DNA of 64,000 nucleotides from Thermoanaerobacter ethanolicus JW 200. GTDB taxonomy: Bacteria > Bacillota > Thermoanaerobacteria > Thermoanaerobacterales > Thermoanaerobacteraceae. The stretch's first letter is position 1. Every line of letters begins with the position of its first letter. The stretch lies in the NCBI RefSeq assembly GCF_003722315.1, contig NZ_CP033580.1:1363001-1427000 (forward strand). The letters run 5' to 3'. This document shows, piece by piece, positions 2,424 through 9,748 of the stretch. The notes beneath the pieces were generated by a model that made no database searches, was not told the origin of the DNA, and saw only the letters and a list, made by a program, of their open reading frames with translations. Made by a program: the position numbers and the translations under genes.

Positions 2424-4766
2424 ATGGCCAACAAAACGAAGAAACCAATTTACCCTTTTGAAGATTGGGTTATAAGAGAGACGCAGTTTAGTATAGACAC
2501 TAACTACAGAAATGAAACTATTTTTGCTTTAGCAAATGGATATATTGGAATGAGAGGAACTTTTGAAGAAGGATATTCAGGGCCTAAAAATACCTCTTTT
2601 AATGGGACGTATATCAATGGATTTTATGAAATACACGATATAGTTTACCCTGAAGGGGGATATGGTTTTGCAAAAATAGGGCAGACGATGTTAAATGTGG
2701 CTGATAGTAAAATAATAAAATTATATGTAGATGGGGAAAAGTTTGATTTGTTACAAGGGAAAATCCTCTTTTATGAGAGAGTACTTGACATGAAGAAAGG
2801 TTTTGTAGAAAGAAAAGTAAAATGGGAATCTCCTACAGGAAAAATTTTAGAGGTAAAAATAAAGAGAATTGTATCATTAAATAGACAACATTTAGCGGCG
2901 ATTTCTTTTACTGTGGAACCTGTAAATTTTACCGGAAAAATTAGATTTGTTTCCGCTATTGACGGAAATGTTTCAAATATAAATGATAGTGAAGATGTAA
3001 GAGTAGGGTCAAATTTAAAAGGAAAGGTTTTAAAGACTATAGATAAAAGTGTAGAGGGTTTAAAAGGGTGGATTGTTCAAAAGACGCAAAAGAGTAATTT
3101 CTCCTATGTTTGCGCGATAGACAATGTATTAGTGGGAGATAGTAAATATGAAGTCTCAAATAGTTTAGAAGAAGATGGAGTAAAAGTAATTGTAGATCTA
3201 GAGGCTGAAAAAGGCACCTCATACACATTGAATAAATTTATTTCCTATTACACTTCAAAGGATTTTGATGAAAATAAATTAGTTGTTCTTGCTTTAGAAG
3301 AAATAGAAAAAGCCAAAAATGACGGCTTTGAAACGATAGAAAAAGAGCAGGAAGAATTTTTGAATTCTTTTTGGAAAGATGCTGATGTAATCATAGAAGG
3401 AGATAAAGCTCTGCAGCAAGGCATACGCTTTAATGAATTTCATCTACTTCAATCTGTCGGAAGAGATGGAAAGACAAATATTGCAGCAAAAGGGCTGACT
3501 GGAGAAGGTTATGAAGGCCATTATTTTTGGGATTCTGATATCTATATAATGCCTTTCTTTCTTTATACAAAGCCTGAAATTGCAAAAGCTTTGGTAATGT
3601 ACAGGTATAATCTTTTGGATGCAGCAAGATCCAGGGCAAAGGAATTAGGTCACAAAGGAGCTTTGTATCCTTGGAGAACGATAGATGGTCCTGAATGTTC
3701 TGCTTACTTTCCAGCTGGCACGGCACAGTATCACATAAATGCTGATATAGTTTATGCTTTGAAAAGATATGTAGAAGCGACGAATGACGTGGATTTTCTT
3801 TATGACTATGGCTGTGAAATAGTGTTTGAGACAGCAAGGTTTTGGGAAGATTTAGGGGCGTATATTCCTCTTAAAGACAATAAATTTTGCATAAACTGTG
3901 TAACTGGTCCAGATGAGTACACTGCATTGGTTGATAATAACGCCTATACTAATTACATGGCAAAGATGAATTTGGAATACGCTTATGATATTTCAAATAA
4001 AATGAAAAAAGAAGTGCCTGAGAAATACCAAAAAATTGCTTCTAAGTTAAATCTAAAAGATCAAGAAATTAATGCGTGGAAAAAAGCTGCTGACAATATG
4101 TACCTTCCTTATTCAAAAGAACTTGATATTATACCACAGGATGACAGCTTTTTGTATAAAGAAAGGATAACAGGGGATGAAATACCACAAGATCAATTTC
4201 CACTTTTGTTGCACTGGCATTACCTAAATATTTATAGATATCAAATATGTAAACAGCCTGATGTGTTGCTTTTGATGTTTTTACAGAGAGAAAAATTTAC
4301 TAAAGATGAACTTAAAAAGAATTACGATTATTATGAACCTATTACCACTCACGACTCCTCCTTGTCGCCAGCTATATTTAGCATACTAGCCAATGAAATA
4401 GGATATACTGACAAAGCTTATAAATACTTTATGATGACTGCAAGAATGGATTTGGACGACTACAATGACAATGCTAAGGACGGAATTCATGCTGCTTCTA
4501 TGGCGGGAACATGGAGCGCAGTTGTGAATGGTTTTGGTGGAATGAGGGTTTATACAAATGAACTGCATTTTGAGCCGAGATTGCCAAAAGAATGGAATTT
4601 GCTCTCTTTTAATGTGAGATACAAAGGTAGAAAAATAAATGTCAAATTAACCAAAGAAAGTGTTGTGTTTGCACTATTAGAAGGAGAGCCTATAGAAATC
4701 TACTGCTTTGACGAAAAAATTTTACTTGAAAAAGGAGAAAATAAAGTAGAAAGTCGCAAAAATTAA
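2424..4766 (+). CDS. treP: GH65 disaccharide phosphorylase, probably alpha,alpha-trehalose phosphorylase
   Basis: A 780-residue glycoside hydrolase family 65 enzyme. The family layout is visible: N-terminal beta-sandwich (about 1-270), helical linker, (alpha/alpha)6 barrel, and a short C-terminal beta domain. The general-acid Glu sits in TGPDEYTALVDNNAY (Glu498). The family carries out phosphorolysis of an alpha-glucobiose to beta-glucose-1-phosphate plus glucose in the cytoplasm. I recall the sequence start (ANKTKKPIYPFEDW) as that of the characterised Thermoanaerobacter brockii trehalose phosphorylase; kojibiose phosphorylase is the main alternative. The start at 2424 is preferred because GGAGG lies 6 bases upstream; the ATG at 2418 touches the ribosome site. 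The sugar ABC transporter upstream fits import of the substrate. Confidence 0.88.
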   Translation: MANKTKKPIYPFEDWVIRETQFSIDTNYRNETIFALANGYIGMRGTFEEGYSGPKNTSFNGTYINGFYEIHDIVYPEGGYGFAKIGQTMLNVADSKIIKLYVDGEKFDLLQGKILFYERVLDMKKGFVERKVKWESPTGKILEVKIKRIVSLNRQHLAAISFTVEPVNFTGKIRFVSAIDGNVSNINDSEDVRVGSNLKGKVLKTIDKSVEGLKGWIVQKTQKSNFSYVCAIDNVLVGDSKYEVSNSLEEDGVKVIVDLEAEKGTSYTLNKFISYYTSKDFDENKLVVLALEEIEKAKNDGFETIEKEQEEFLNSFWKDADVIIEGDKALQQGIRFNEFHLLQSVGRDGKTNIAAKGLTGEGYEGHYFWDSDIYIMPFFLYTKPEIAKALVMYRYNLLDAARSRAKELGHKGALYPWRTIDGPECSAYFPAGTAQYHINADIVYALKRYVEATNDVDFLYDYGCEIVFETARFWEDLGAYIPLKDNKFCINCVTGPDEYTALVDNNAYTNYMAKMNLEYAYDISNKMKKEVPEKYQKIASKLNLKDQEINAWKKAADNMYLPYSKELDIIPQDDSFLYKERITGDEIPQDQFPLLLHWHYLNIYRYQICKQPDVLLLMFLQREKFTKDELKKNYDYYEPITTHDSSLSPAIFSILANEIGYTDKAYKYFMMTARMDLDDYNDNAKDGIHAASMAGTWSAVVNGFGGMRVYTNELHFEPRLPKEWNLLSFNVRYKGRKINVKLTKESVVFALLEGEPIEIYCFDEKILLEKGENKVESRKN

Positions 4767-4805: not shown

Positions 4806-6536
4806 TTATATATCGTTATTTGAAAGGGTGAGTGAACCGCCGCCCGTACTTAAATCAAAGTAATAATTTCCACTGCCTCTATATGAATATACTTTGATAT
4901 AATAGGTTCCCGTTTGTGTTGGAATATATGTTATTGTTTCCTGCCTTTGTGTTCCAGTTGAACTTTTAACAAGAGTACCGGTGGGGTCATAGAGGTATAT
5001 ATCGAAATCAGGGTTATAGTTTGCCCAATCAGGTATTATGAAAGTTATTGCAATAGGATATGATGTGTCTGTCACGTTAAATGTCCAAATGTCACTGTAA
5101 CGAGACCCAGGGAGTGAATCTTTAGCATAATAATGGTTTGGCACAGATATATTAGTTCCTGTGAAATTTCCAGCTGTTTTAATTGCTTCATATGCATCCA
5201 ATCTTCCTACACCATAGTCAATGTTTTTGCTTGGAGGACCCCAACTTTTTGCAGTAGTCATTATTATATTTTTTACATCAAGTGGTGCAAGGCTTATATT
5301 TGCATTGAGCATAAGGGCTACTGTACCTGCTACAAAAGGTGTTGCCATGCTTGTGCCACTGTATGTCACATAACCATTTATAGAGTTTGCTTTTGCGGCA
5401 GTTATATTGTATCCGGGTGCTGCAATGTCAGGTTTTATCCTTCCGTCAGCTGTGGGACCACGGCTGGAGAAGCTTGCAAGGTTGAATCCAAGTTCTCCTA
5501 CATCCGCCATTGCTGCAACGGTTATGGCTTTTTCTGCTGCACCAGGTGATCCTATGGTGTACCTTGCAGGGCCTGAATTTCCAGCTGCAACTACTACTAC
5601 AATTCCGCTATCTACGGCGCTGTTTACTGCTAATGAGGTAGAGTCAGTTCCATCAGAACTTGTAGAAGTGCCGAGGCTTAAATTTATAACTTTGATTCCG
5701 TATACATCTTTGTTTTGAACAGCCCAATCAATTCCTGCCGTTACAGTGCTCATACTTCCGCTTCCATTTGAATCGAGTACTTTTATTCCTACCAAAGCTG
5801 CACCAGGAGCAACACCTGTATAAAGGTTGTTCCCTGTCCCAGTGCCTGCCGCAATGCTTGCTACATGAGTTCCATGTCCATTATCATCGTAAGGGGTAGT
5901 TTTACCGTTTACAAAATCTTGCCATCCTATTATTTTGCCACCAGCAAGGTCAACATGGGATCCATCAATACCTGTATCAATAACTGCTATTACTATATCA
6001 TTCTTGGAGTAAGAGGAAGGATTACCATCTTTGTCTCCAGTTACGCCAAAGTCACTTCTCGCTTTTGTAACGCCAAACCATTTTGTTGCAGTGTCTAATG
6101 TCGCATATACAGGCTCGTCATACTCAATTTGCTTTACTATATCTAATTTTGACAAAGCGTTTATTTGTCCTTTAGTTAAAGTAGCAGCAACTCCTGGAAT
6201 AATTTTGTATTTATGCTTTATATTAAACTTTCCAATGGATTTAGAAATATTTAATAGTTCGTTATCATCTATGTTTTTGTTGAAGGTTATTATGACAGGG
6301 AATTCCGCACTGTCAGGCTTATCAGTAAGCTTTGCTTCCAAGTTATCAAAGATTTTGTTTTTGTTAGAATCTTGCATCAAAACTTTTTGAATTTGAGGCG
6401 AGTAATTTTTTGTTGGAGAGTCGCCAGATAAGTTTGTTAAGTTGGGCTGAGCTTGGACTAATACTCCACTTAGCGACATTAAAGCTACAATTAACACAAA
6501 AGCCAGTAAAGCTTTTAATGTTTGTCGGTTCTTCAT
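4806..6536 (-). CDS. Secreted subtilisin-like serine protease (S8) with inhibitor prodomain and PPC-like domain
   Basis: A 576-residue exported protease. A Sec signal peptide (MKNRQTLKALLAFVLIVALM...) is followed by an I9-type propeptide (about 60-145, PVIITFNKNIDDNELLNISK), then the S8 catalytic domain with the full triad: Asp187 (AVIDTGIDG), His221 (NGHGTHVAS) and Ser396 (SGTSMATPF), plus oxyanion Asn in AAGNSGP. The C-terminal 110 residues look like a PPC beta-sandwich (FDIYLYDPTGTLVKSS, TGTYYIKVYSYRGSGNYYF). A TAAGGAGG ribosome site precedes ATG. The gene reads from an apparent sigma54 promoter (6668-6685) and stands divergent from an enhancer-binding-protein gene, which suggests nutrient or c-di-GMP-linked control of protein degradation outside the cell. 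Confidence 0.95.
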   Translation of the reverse strand: MKNRQTLKALLAFVLIVALMSLSGVLVQAQPNLTNLSGDSPTKNYSPQIQKVLMQDSNKNKIFDNLEAKLTDKPDSAEFPVIITFNKNIDDNELLNISKSIGKFNIKHKYKIIPGVAATLTKGQINALSKLDIVKQIEYDEPVYATLDTATKWFGVTKARSDFGVTGDKDGNPSSYSKNDIVIAVIDTGIDGSHVDLAGGKIIGWQDFVNGKTTPYDDNGHGTHVASIAAGTGTGNNLYTGVAPGAALVGIKVLDSNGSGSMSTVTAGIDWAVQNKDVYGIKVINLSLGTSTSSDGTDSTSLAVNSAVDSGIVVVVAAGNSGPARYTIGSPGAAEKAITVAAMADVGELGFNLASFSSRGPTADGRIKPDIAAPGYNITAAKANSINGYVTYSGTSMATPFVAGTVALMLNANISLAPLDVKNIIMTTAKSWGPPSKNIDYGVGRLDAYEAIKTAGNFTGTNISVPNHYYAKDSLPGSRYSDIWTFNVTDTSYPIAITFIIPDWANYNPDFDIYLYDPTGTLVKSSTGTQRQETITYIPTQTGTYYIKVYSYRGSGNYYFDLSTGGGSLTLSNNDI

Positions 6537-6558: not shown

Positions 6559-6630
6559 TTAATATTTTTTAAAATTTAAGTCAGCCCTTCTAGTCGCTAA
6601 GTGAAACTGTTTCTTTCTTCTATTCATCAT
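6559..6630 (-). CDS. Possible 23-codon basic leader peptide in the protease mRNA
   Basis: A short frame (MMNRRKKQFHLATRRADLNF..., very basic) lies between the predicted sigma54 start site and the protease gene. AAAGGAG lies directly against its ATGATG, which is closer than ideal (0-3 bases). It ends 22 bases before the protease start codon. It may be fortuitous; no homologue is recognised. Confidence 0.25.
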   Translation of the reverse strand: MMNRRKKQFHLATRRADLNFKKY

Positions 6631-6667: not shown

Positions 6668-6685
6668 AAGCAATTTTTATGCCAA
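6668..6685 (-). promoter_or_regulatory. Sigma54 (-24/-12) promoter of the protease gene
   Basis: On the minus strand the sequence reads TTGGCATAAAAATTGCTT. The invariant GG (-24) and GC (-12) are separated by exactly 10 bases, matching the RpoN consensus TGGCAc-N5-TTGCt. It points at the protease gene, with a predicted start near 6658 and a leader of about 120 bases. A sigma54 activator is encoded divergently next door. Confidence 0.8.
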
Positions 6686-6722
6686 TTTACTGTATATAGA
6701 CAAAATTAATAAAAGTTTTTAA

Positions 6723-6757
6723 TGTGTATAATTTTTTATACACATTTTTGATACACA
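6723..6757. promoter_or_regulatory. Palindrome, candidate enhancer (UAS) for the sigma54 activator
   Basis: A perfect 9-bp inverted repeat with 4-base spacer (TGTGTATAA-TTTT-TTATACACA, 6723-6744), followed by a third half-site ATACACA (6751-6757). Its centre is about 75 bases upstream of the predicted sigma54 start site of the protease gene, where enhancer-binding proteins commonly bind. It also lies upstream of the activator gene itself, so it could serve both. Confidence 0.55.
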
Positions 6758-6892
6758 AAAGAATGCATAAAACACATACATTTAGAAATTAGTATAAATT
6801 TAACGAATTATGTAGAAAAAATCTTTTTTAAAAATAGAAGGAAAATTCATATTTATGTCGAAATAGTAATATAGGAAAATTAGATAAATTTT

Positions 6893-6981
6893 TGTTGAAA
6901 AAGGCAAACTCGTCGAAAGGCGGGGACGCAAAGCTACGGGTCTAATGCAACAGTTTTGCTATGATAGCCGGGCTACCAACA
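6893..6981 (+). promoter_or_regulatory. Cyclic di-GMP-I (GEMM-I) riboswitch aptamer
   Basis: The conserved GEMM-I blocks appear in order: AGGCAAAC, a GAAA tetraloop hairpin (CTCGTC-GAAA-GGCGGG), GGGACGCAAAGC, the tetraloop-receptor strands TCTAAT and CTATGA around a small stem-loop (GCAA/TTGC), then GCCGGGCTACC. A closing P1 helix TGTTG/CAACA is present. The base equivalent to G20 of the Vibrio Vc2 aptamer is G, which favours c-di-GMP over the cGAMP variant (which carries A). It is followed at once by a terminator, so it acts at transcription of the enhancer-binding-protein gene. Confidence 0.9.
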
Positions 6982-6990
6982 TTTATATAT

Positions 6991-7020
6991 AACCTCCTGC
7001 CTTTTGGTAGGAGGTTTATT
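6991..7020 (+). terminator. Riboswitch expression-platform terminator
   Basis: An 11-bp stem (AACCTCCTGCC / GGTAGGAGGTT, one G-U pair, TTTT loop) followed by TTATTAATT. The aptamer's 3' CTACC (6973-6977) is complementary to GGTAG (7006-7010) in the terminator's second strand. An antiterminator can therefore form when the aptamer is not folded; by inference ligand binding frees the terminator, making this an OFF switch. Confidence 0.82.
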
Positions 7021-7039: not shown

Positions 7040-8332
7040 ATGACTAATAAGGAAAAAATTTATAATATTATTGTAGAAAAAAGTAAAGAATTTGATATTC
7101 AAAATTTTTTGATAAGTAGAAAAGGTGGAATCACTACAGAAGAAGTAGCACAATTGCTAAAAATGGCTCGACCAAATGTGTCTTTTATTTTAAATCATCT
7201 TGTAAGAGAAGGGAAAATAGTTAAAATTATTTCAAAACCTGTGTATTATATTGAAAAAAATAGATTAGCTTATTTTTTAGGGAATAAGGTTAAGGAAGAA
7301 ATGCTTCTAAAAGACTTAATTGATTTTTTAAACTTAAGGAAAGAAAAAGAATGTGCTTTTGAAAATATAATAGGACATGATGGCAGCCTCAAAGGACAAA
7401 TAGAACAGGCCAAAGCAGCTGTATTATATCCTCCTTATGGGCTCCACACTCTTATCATAGGACCGCCTGGCTCTGGTAAATCTTTTTTCGCAGAGATGAT
7501 GTACAAATTCAGTCTTCAAAATGGTAGGGTAGGACCTCTTGAAGTATTAAACTGTGCGGATTACTATAACAATCCTCAACTTCTTATGTCTCATTTGTTT
7601 GGACATGTTAAAGGAGCCTATACTGGAGCTGATGTAGATAAGATAGGTTTAGTCGAAAAAGCTGATAAAGGGATATTATTCCTTGACGAGGTTCACAGAT
7701 TACCTCCAGAAGGCCAAGAAATGTTATTTTATCTTATTGACAAAGGAGTATATCGGAGATTAGGAGATACTGTTGAAAGAACGGCTAACTTAATGATTAT
7801 AGCAGCTACTACAGAAAAACCTGATTCTTTTCTTTTAAAAACTTTTATGAGACGAATACCAGTTATCATCCAACTGCCATCTTTTGAGGGAAGGCCTCTA
7901 AACGAGAAAATTGAGATAATTGTTTACCTTTTTAAAGAAGAAGCCAAACGGCTAAACTTAAATATTATTGTACATCCAGAGTTAATTTCTTTACTTTTGT
8001 CTTTGCAGTATGAGGGAAATATTGGAGAATTAAAATCTATCATTCAATTGCTTTGTTCTAAAGCTTTTTTAATGAATTACGAAACGAAGAGAAATTTTTT
8101 AAAAATTGATCTTACTCTGTTGCCCTCCGTTTATTTTAATGTAGGGAAAAGTAAAACGATAAATTTTGATAAATTTTTAATCATTTCCTCTGAAATTGAA
8201 AGGGAAATAGACAAATATGATTTTTATGAGTTTATTGCTATGAAGTATAATGAGTTAAAAGAAAAAGGAATAGTAGAAATATTTGAAATTATGTTGGGTG
8301 ATAATTTTGGGAAAAATGGGAATCATCCATAG
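7040..8332 (+). CDS. LevR-like sigma54 enhancer-binding protein lacking PTS sensory domains
   Basis: A 430-residue transcription activator. The N-terminus is a winged-helix domain (about 25-75: TTEEVAQLLKMARPNVSFIL). The AAA+ sigma54-interaction domain follows, with Walker A GPPGSGKS (141-148), the sigma54-contacting loop GAYTGA (192-197), and Walker B LFLDE (Asp216, Glu217). LevR proteins normally run to about 900 residues with PRD and EIIA/EIIB domains after the AAA+ part; here the protein stops shortly after it. The start at 7040 (AAGGTGG upstream) is chosen because the earlier GTG lies in the riboswitch terminator. Control is probably by transcription through the c-di-GMP riboswitch rather than by PTS phosphorylation. 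Likely target: the divergent protease promoter. Confidence 0.9.
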   Translation: MTNKEKIYNIIVEKSKEFDIQNFLISRKGGITTEEVAQLLKMARPNVSFILNHLVREGKIVKIISKPVYYIEKNRLAYFLGNKVKEEMLLKDLIDFLNLRKEKECAFENIIGHDGSLKGQIEQAKAAVLYPPYGLHTLIIGPPGSGKSFFAEMMYKFSLQNGRVGPLEVLNCADYYNNPQLLMSHLFGHVKGAYTGADVDKIGLVEKADKGILFLDEVHRLPPEGQEMLFYLIDKGVYRRLGDTVERTANLMIIAATTEKPDSFLLKTFMRRIPVIIQLPSFEGRPLNEKIEIIVYLFKEEAKRLNLNIIVHPELISLLLSLQYEGNIGELKSIIQLLCSKAFLMNYETKRNFLKIDLTLLPSVYFNVGKSKTINFDKFLIISSEIEREIDKYDFYEFIAMKYNELKEKGIVEIFEIMLGDNFGKNGNHP

Positions 8333-8460
8333 ATTAGTATATCTAAGAATATACCACTATAATATATCATTCTGGAGATATTTTTAATTAACGGAGAATT
8401 ATCGGGAAATACAAAGGATGACAATATTGATGCGAGAGTTTATAATTGTAATCGAATTAA

Positions 8461-8490
8461 CTCCTGCTATTGCGCAACAATAGAAAGGAG
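8461..8490 (+). promoter_or_regulatory. Hairpin that can mask the ribosome site of the SleB-like gene
   Basis: CTCCT-G-CTATTG (8461-8472) pairs with CAATAG-AA-AGGAG (8478-8490) around a CGCAA loop, placing the AAGGAGG Shine-Dalgarno in the stem. The preceding 8333-8460 stretch holds no convincing gene and only a weak TATAAT at about 8351; it may be a structured leader, but I recognise no known riboswitch in it. Confidence 0.5.
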
Positions 8491-8497
8491 GAAACTC

Positions 8498-9109
8498 ATG
8501 ATGAAGAATAAAATTTTGAAAATTGCTGTAGCATATTTAATGATATTTATAATGCTATTTGGAGGAATTACTTCGGCATACGCTTACGACAAAATCCACG
8601 TTGTTTCAAAAGGTGAATCATTGTATTTAATAGCGAAATGGTATGGTAGTGATGTAAATAACATAAAACAGGCAAATGGGAATTGGAGCGATTTGATATA
8701 TCCTGGTGAAAAATTAGTGGTGCCAGTAGATGAAAATAGTGCTTATTACAATTATCTTGTTGACAGATATTTAATCGCAAAAATGATTTATGCTGAAGCT
8801 CGTGGAGAAAGCTTTGAGGGTCAGGTCGCTGTAGGTGCGGTGATTTTGAATAGAGTAAAAAGCGGTATTTTCCCAAATACTGTAGCAGGAGTTATATATC
8901 AGCCAGATGCTTTTGAGTCTGTAACGAATGGTGAATTTTTCAATCACGAACCTGACCTTACAGCTTTTAAAGCAGCAGATGCAGCTTTAGCCGGATGGGA
9001 CCCAACAGGAGGAGCCCTATACTTCTTCAATCCAGCTACTTCAACTTCTTGGTGGATATGGACAAGGACAATTACAAATGTGATAGGACACCACTGGTTT
9101 GCAATATAG
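8498..9109 (+). CDS. Secreted LysM / SleB-type cell-wall hydrolase
   Basis: A 203-residue exported wall enzyme. Signal peptide (KILKIAVAYLMIFIMLFGGITSAYA), one LysM peptidoglycan-binding domain (about 31-75: IHVVSKGESLYLIAKWYG...YPGEKLVVP), then a Hydrolase_2/SleB catalytic domain (about 85-203: IAKMIYAEARGESFEGQVAVGAVILNR with the catalytic Glu). SleB-family enzymes are lytic transglycosylases acting on spore cortex or vegetative wall. AAAGGAGG precedes tandem ATGs, either of which may start. The ribosome site can be hidden in an upstream hairpin, suggesting translational control. Confidence 0.92.
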   Translation: MMKNKILKIAVAYLMIFIMLFGGITSAYAYDKIHVVSKGESLYLIAKWYGSDVNNIKQANGNWSDLIYPGEKLVVPVDENSAYYNYLVDRYLIAKMIYAEARGESFEGQVAVGAVILNRVKSGIFPNTVAGVIYQPDAFESVTNGEFFNHEPDLTAFKAADAALAGWDPTGGALYFFNPATSTSWWIWTRTITNVIGHHWFAI

Positions 9110-9134
9110 GAAGGCAGAAGCCTTCCTATATTGC
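9101..9134 (+). terminator. Terminator overlapping the SleB-like stop codon
   Basis: A 15-bp perfect inverted repeat (GCAATATAGGAAGGC / GCCTTCCTATATTGC) with loop AGAA; the gene's TAG lies inside the left arm. It is followed by ATATATTTTAC, a moderate U-rich tail. Confidence 0.8.
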
Positions 9135-9205
9135 ATATATTTTACATTATAAAATTTTACTTTTGTAAAAGAATAAGAATAGCATTAAAAATAGGAGCTG
9201 ATTAT

Positions 9206-9748
9206 ATGGTACATATATTTGTAGGAGGAAGTTCAGAAAAAAGTTCTATTATAAAATTTTTATCCTACTGTGTACATTCTAAAGAAATTGTGATAGAAGA
9301 GTTAAAGAATTATAAAGAGAGAGCAGATATTTTAATTATCTCTGATATTCTATGTGATGAGGATTTTCACAAGTTAAAAAATTATATTTATAATTTTCCG
9401 AGCGGTATTATAATAACAAATGCAGATGATGAGCTATCAAATAAACTCTTTGCACAGGGAATAAATTCTACCCTTATAACATGCGGTTTAAATCCAAAAT
9501 CTTCCATTACTGCTTCTTCAATATCTTATGAAGATGAAGGTTATGAATTTAATTATTGCGTACAAAGGACTTTTTTTAATTTAAAGGGCAAATTGATAGA
9601 GCCAATGGAAATACCTGTTGAAATAAAAGTTCCTGGACAGTATAATATATATAACTCATTATTTGTAATAACTTTATTATTAATTTTAGGATATGAAATT
9701 AAAGATATACAAAATGTGGTTAAAACCTTTGAGAATAGTGGGCGGTGA
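9206..9748 (+). CDS. Mur-ligase middle-domain-like protein (no ATP-grasp P-loop)
   Basis: A 180-residue protein of unknown role. Its second half resembles the central part of Mur ligases (CGLNPKSSITASSI... FNLKGKLIEPMEIPVEIKVPGQYNIYNSLFVITLLLILGYEI, matching the typical GxxNxxNxLAAxxxA helix). The N-terminal GKT loop and the C-terminal ligase domain are missing, so ligase activity is unlikely. The start at 9206 is favoured by AGGAG 8 bases upstream; the longer frame begins inside the preceding terminator. It sits before an SSB-like gene with about 110 bases between them. Confidence 0.65.
   Translation: MVHIFVGGSSEKSSIIKFLSYCVHSKEIVIEELKNYKERADILIISDILCDEDFHKLKNYIYNFPSGIIITNADDELSNKLFAQGINSTLITCGLNPKSSITASSISYEDEGYEFNYCVQRTFFNLKGKLIEPMEIPVEIKVPGQYNIYNSLFVITLLLILGYEIKDIQNVVKTFENSGR

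Follow-up and report, generated by a model that had tools for sequence, protein, structure and literature searches.

A LevR-derived sigma-54 activator without PRD and EIIA domains, placed behind a c-di-GMP-I riboswitch and probably acting on a divergent protease gene in Thermoanaerobacter

Most enhancer-binding proteins bear their own sensory domains, and the gene at 7040 to 8332 raises the question of what governs a LevR/DagR-type activator in which these domains are missing. The gene lies in a stretch of 64,000 nucleotides from Thermoanaerobacter ethanolicus JW 200 (NZ_CP033580.1, positions 1,363,001 to 1,427,000), which was analyzed as a whole and is called the window here. It was compared across a genus sample of ten genomes, in which G000 is the window genome and G007 is Caldanaerobacter subterraneus DSM 13054. 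A first-pass annotation had described the product as a LevR-type activator lacking PRD and EII domains and had suggested that its control may have moved from PTS phosphorylation to a riboswitch. The protein is laid out as follows.

7040 to 8332, plus strand: PRD-less LevR/DagR-type sigma-54 activator, 430 aa, ATG start.
Activator residues about 24 to 60: HTH.
Activator residues about 110 to 340: AAA+ module, followed by a short tail that ends before the position of PRD1.

The ATG is preceded by AAGGTGGTG; the mechanically called open reading frame begins further upstream, at a TTG at 7004 that falls within the terminator described below. Pfam placed Sigma54_activat (PF00158) on residues 110-271 (1.7e-39), and the Walker A motif GPPGSGKS, the GAYTGA loop and a Walker B-like GILFLDEVHRL are all present, as first annotated, giving the protein the AAA+ module of a sigma-54 enhancer-binding protein. 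According to the part of PMC3162934 available, the exchange of F3 for Y in the GAFTGA loop is known from the validated activator TouR. The N-terminal segment is winged-HTH-like, with a match to HTH_24 slightly below cut-off (21.4 versus 21.9 bits; Pfam; residues 24-60). Neither PRD nor EIIA occurred among the matches listed for the window protein (25 of 28 Pfam families at E <= 1), nor did a C-terminal HTH among the Pfam families listed. The NCBIfam DagR profile aligned through its positions 1-431 of 938 with activator residues 1-409 (4.3e-113), covering the N-terminal HTH and AAA+ module that the protein shares with LevR, DagR and CelR. Because no PRD or EIIA match was found and the DagR score was 379 against a cut-off of 1400, the activator, judged by its domain content, is LevR-derived but no longer a LevR.

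The comparison with about 900 residues made in the first-pass annotation also holds within this genome, where the four long LevR-type paralogues examined measure 887-1032 aa and all carry PRD and EIIA-man. The same two domains were present in all six long forms scanned and absent from the window protein and the three other short proteins scanned; aligned with the long paralogues, the short proteins stop where PRD1 would begin. The PRD-bearing LevR-type paralogues of this lineage presumably answer to sugars. In combining an AAA+ module with a DNA-binding domain and lacking a sensory domain, the activator resembles PspF. PspF carries its DNA-binding domain at the C-terminus, whereas the HTH found here is N-terminal and belongs to a protein of LevR-type descent. 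A structure prediction from eight sequences was poor (mean pLDDT 49) and was left out of the conclusions.

An intact short orthologue was found in eight of the ten genus genomes, with 430-443 aa counted from the aligned start (the longest possible frame in G007 is 463). Since the frame is equally short in these eight genomes, a frameshift or assembly artefact was ruled out, and sequence comparison indicates that the shortness is neither chance nor local truncation; the seven intact orthologues besides the window gene thus agree with what had been annotated, and no full-length orthologue with a local frameshift was found. In the remaining two genomes the activator is broken, being open for 171 codons in G003, where an IS110-type transposase gene interrupts it, and for 201 codons in G008, a draft assembly. 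In the tree, the eight short proteins formed one clade (100/99) nested among the long PRD/EIIA forms, with G007 as its basal member. Conservation among close strains carries little weight, as related genomes share ancestry; dN/dS over residues 1-410 against the window gene was 0.08-0.39, the value of 0.39 coming from very few changes, and it was 0.13 against each of the two most distant members, G002 and G007. These values indicate purifying selection on the short protein. GAYTGA and the Walker A-type motif are invariant among the short orthologues, and GILFLDEVHRL is unchanged across all eight.

Outside the genus, searches of the family (20 genomes), order (24) and class (37) at cut-offs of E <= 1e-60, 1e-60 and 1e-95, respectively, listed no open frame under 600 codons; frames of 625 and 638 codons were listed in G013 and G015. 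A phylum search of 249 genomes, with at most seven candidates scored per genome, gave at least 75 matches in 38 genomes; besides the window gene, two open frames under 700 codons (G149, G114) were among the candidates scored. The former was rejected as a long form split over two adjacent reading frames, and the latter (511 aa) seems, by eye, to retain part of PRD1. Similarly, a 651-codon frame in G008 with 57% identity (L010/L021) has a PRD, part of an EIIA and an additional ORF and was counted as a long form. A profile scan of contigs with the alignment of the eight short proteins yielded six loci, all matching genomes of the genus. By these searches, the PRD-free short form has so far been seen only in this genus. 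G002 additionally holds a 241-codon fragment of another homologue.

The DNA after the stop codon had been annotated as free of any PRD remnant, and tblastn of six long C-terminal halves (that of L021 incomplete) against the 1500 nt following the window stop bore this out, giving nothing better than E = 2.2. One better match, in G007 (E = 4.6e-4), falls within a Mur-ligase-like ORF at a distance of 1.2 kb and was taken as spurious. The window has a short ORF at 9131-9748 (plus strand) that matches the Mur ligase middle domain only (Mur_ligase_M, 4.2e-8), with no full ligase.

The leader of the activator gene contains the riboswitch that the annotation had placed there, together with the elements of a predicted terminator/antiterminator pair.

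6893 to 6980, plus strand: c-di-GMP-I riboswitch aptamer (RF01051, 87.4 bits against a gathering score of 35, full model 1-87).
6991 to 7016, plus strand: intrinsic-terminator hairpin between aptamer and start codon.
6913 to 6925, plus strand: predicted antiterminator 5' arm, part of aptamer P2, UCGAAAGGCGGGG (static folds).
6995 to 7007, plus strand: predicted antiterminator 3' arm, overlapping the 5' arm and loop of the terminator (static folds).

The aptamer is present at the activator locus in nine of the ten genomes, G007 being the one without, and GGDEF domains occur in all ten. In static folds, 6913-6925 paired with 6995-7007 when the window leader ended at 7008 or when the 3' arm of the terminator was blocked. 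With this arm blocked, a P2-consuming antiterminator helix, exact or near, formed in eight of nine leaders; the exception, G006, adopted a different fold. The unconstrained minimum had the terminator in eight of nine leaders and was of the antiterminator type in G003. Shuffled segments matched the energy of the antiterminator duplex in 0 to 6.6% of cases, moderate support for a helix whose 5' arm lies in P2, which carries conserved sequence of its own. Because aptamer and predicted antiterminator share P2 and are mutually exclusive, the ligand should favor termination, and c-di-GMP should turn the activator off. This direction agrees with C. difficile, whose class I c-di-GMP riboswitches are OFF switches, one of them governing the secreted protease ZmpI/PPEP-1, according to the available parts of PMC6200980 and PMC11477304.

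The same circuit might run with the reverse sign, an ON riboswitch letting c-di-GMP raise both activator and protease. The free-energy minimum of the window leader, folded as naked RNA, does hold aptamer and terminator together, and the part of PMC6200980 available reports a C. difficile class I locus, CD630_19900, that rose with c-di-GMP in RNA-seq. The abstract of that paper nevertheless calls class I riboswitches uniformly OFF, and the alternative fold here uses up P2 in the way that makes the ligand favor the terminator; we regard an ON switch as unlikely.

As for the suggested transfer of control from PTS to riboswitch, it fits nine of the ten loci and is only partly supported, because the basal Caldanaerobacter activator is short but has no riboswitch. 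As G007 has neither PRD nor riboswitch, the comparison suggests that the domain loss may predate the riboswitch, or the riboswitch may have been lost in Caldanaerobacter. Upstream of the riboswitch, a well conserved block (6795-6875, plus strand), also found in G007, contains AAGGAAAATT and TGTCGAAAT; the block could be the promoter of the activator, perhaps of a sigma-H/Spo0A-like type.

On the other side of the leader, a protease gene diverges from the activator in all ten genomes.

4806 to 6536, minus strand: subtilisin-like (S8) protease, 576 aa, with propeptide and PPC domains (Pfam); proposed target.
6669 to 6684, minus strand: sigma-54-type -24/-12 promoter TGGCATAAAAATTGCT, reading towards the protease, with one mismatch to TGGCACN5TTGCW.
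6722 to 6745, no strand assigned: palindrome ATGTGTATAATTTTTTATACACAT, candidate activator binding site (UAS), at conserved spacing to the -24 element.

The N-terminus of the protease is signal-peptide-like by eye. Its gene is open in eight genomes (561-576 codons) and broken in the other two, and these are the two with a broken activator: the G003 protease has a frame break after 164 codons and that of G008 an early stop and an internal deletion, while both genes are open in the other eight genomes. In all ten genomes, including G007, a -24/-12 box was found with a palindrome-like site centred some 49 bp further upstream, by a search expression composed after the alignment had been viewed. 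The 15-base promoter core TGGCATAAAAATTGC is unchanged in eight; G002 differs in one spacer base and G008, with its broken protease, in three, and GG and TTGC are kept in both. By pattern alone, the window has five sites with at most one mismatch on its two strands, and 37 with up to two mismatches versus 23 expected. The palindrome is exact in the window and imperfect in G009, G002, G007 and G008; it is the sole site with fewer than three mismatches in the window genome. Between the window and G007, where 49% of columns in the protease upstream region are identical, no 18-mers are better conserved than the promoter box and one UAS arm, each with 17 of 18 positions identical. Taken together, this arrangement points to the divergent protease as the likely target of the activator.

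The palindrome also sits upstream of the activator gene, and it might serve autoregulation only, with the main target elsewhere, for example the LysM/SleB-type hydrolase downstream (8498-9109) or a PTS operon. The hydrolase gene directly follows the activator in seven of the ten genomes. However, within 4 kb downstream G004 has no hydrolase and G006 only a match of 43 residues, and in G002 the gene lies 2.4 kb away; the interval 8333-8497 has no -24/-12 match at up to two mismatches, and its sigma-70-like match is of a kind found there at chance level. As the genome has no second copy of the palindrome at 0-2 mismatches, we give such a target a rather small chance and keep the protease as the likely one.

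The protease gene itself had no Rfam riboswitch before it, and structure in its 5' leader was not above that of shuffled sequences (z -0.88). This leader contains an ORF of 22-23 codons (6559-6630, minus strand) with a good ribosome-binding site, MNRRKKQFHLATRRADLNFKKY; it is identical in six of the ten genomes, its frame is altered and the peptide shorter in G002, and the same expression did not find it in G009, G007 or G008. A DNA block within the leader, 6575-6606, is unique in the window genome.

Transcription from such a promoter would depend on sigma-54. In the window genome, a DDE transposase gene splits rpoN at about codon 323 (L069, G000:C1 2244057-2246822); the rpoN pieces share three codons, an overlap of the kind that a target duplication leaves. 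The gene is intact (456 aa) in T. wiegelii (G001), which is of the same species, and is one open frame in seven of the ten genomes; in the drafts G007 and G008 it is spread over two overlapping frames, perhaps through sequencing error. Because of the split rpoN, the circuit is probably silent in the window's own strain, where all LevR-type activators may be without their sigma factor; this is a property of the strain and not of the protein fold. The broken rpoN and the broken activators of G003 and G008 show that the circuit is dispensable and, with the last approximately 20 residues ill-conserved between distant members, could suggest that the protein is a LevR relic in decay, persisting by chance next to an independently controlled protease, but this is very improbable given the uniform length, the monophyly, the purifying selection that already strains it, the invariant GAYTGA and Walker A-type motifs and the constant promoter-UAS spacing.

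We consider it probable that the truncated LevR-type activator, an OFF riboswitch and sigma-54 transcription of the protease form one circuit. An enhancer-binding protein derived from LevR/DagR would have been cut back at the domain border, losing the PTS-sensing C-terminal half, and would probably be active whenever it is made; truncated B. subtilis LevR is reportedly active without its C-terminus. The amount of activator would be governed by the c-di-GMP-I riboswitch and terminator: bound c-di-GMP would stabilize the aptamer and remove the antiterminator, stopping transcription before the start codon, and at low c-di-GMP the activator would be made. It would then bind the palindrome at 6722-6745 and drive sigma-54 RNA polymerase at 6669-6684, and the divergent, probably secreted, subtilisin-like protease would be transcribed. 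We lean somewhat towards the broader reading that an RNA sensor took over the input of a LevR-type activator and that the sigma-54 promoter of a secreted protease thereby came under c-di-GMP control.

If so, a natural truncation dropped the sensory domains and an RNA sensor controls the expression level instead, and the short activator offers a natural experiment on the activity of the LevR AAA+ core in the absence of PRDs. Unlike LevR, DagR and CelR, the activator has a leader riboswitch and no PRD or EIIA, and a protease gene takes the place of a PTS operon as its divergent neighbor. The cascade would have three steps, from c-di-GMP through sigma-54 to an exoprotease, and would parallel C. 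difficile ppep-1/zmpI, where a class I c-di-GMP riboswitch cuts secreted-protease output at high c-di-GMP (available parts of PMC11477304, PMC6200980 and PMC4591827). In C. difficile, a metalloprotease gene is under the riboswitch directly; here, control would pass through a sigma-54 activator to a subtilisin-like protease. The available part of a survey of 490 Clostridiales activators (PMC6615313) assigns N-terminal regulatory domains to 431 and a C-terminal PRD to 48, counts 11 as PspF-like, and describes no LevR-type protein without PRD. Among titles retrieved for a c-di-GMP riboswitch together with sigma54/LevR, an enhancer-binding protein or Thermoanaerobacter, none reports such a circuit.

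Altogether, 17 c-di-GMP-I sites were found in the genus, nine of them at the activator locus. The other eight are the following.

G000: c-di-GMP-I site before a cheY-like gene.
G007:C4, locus 4027-4114 (L071): c-di-GMP-I-GGC type riboswitch (RF03167) before a cheW-like gene, the only copy in G007.
G002 and G005: c-di-GMP-I sites before FapA-like genes, followed by a GGDEF gene.
G008: c-di-GMP-I site before a GGDEF gene.
G005: c-di-GMP-I site before a GGDEF-EAL gene.
G002: weak c-di-GMP-I site (37.4 bits) before a hydrogenase/MCP-type gene.
G008: c-di-GMP-I site before one further gene.

These neighbors fit a motility or attachment theme.
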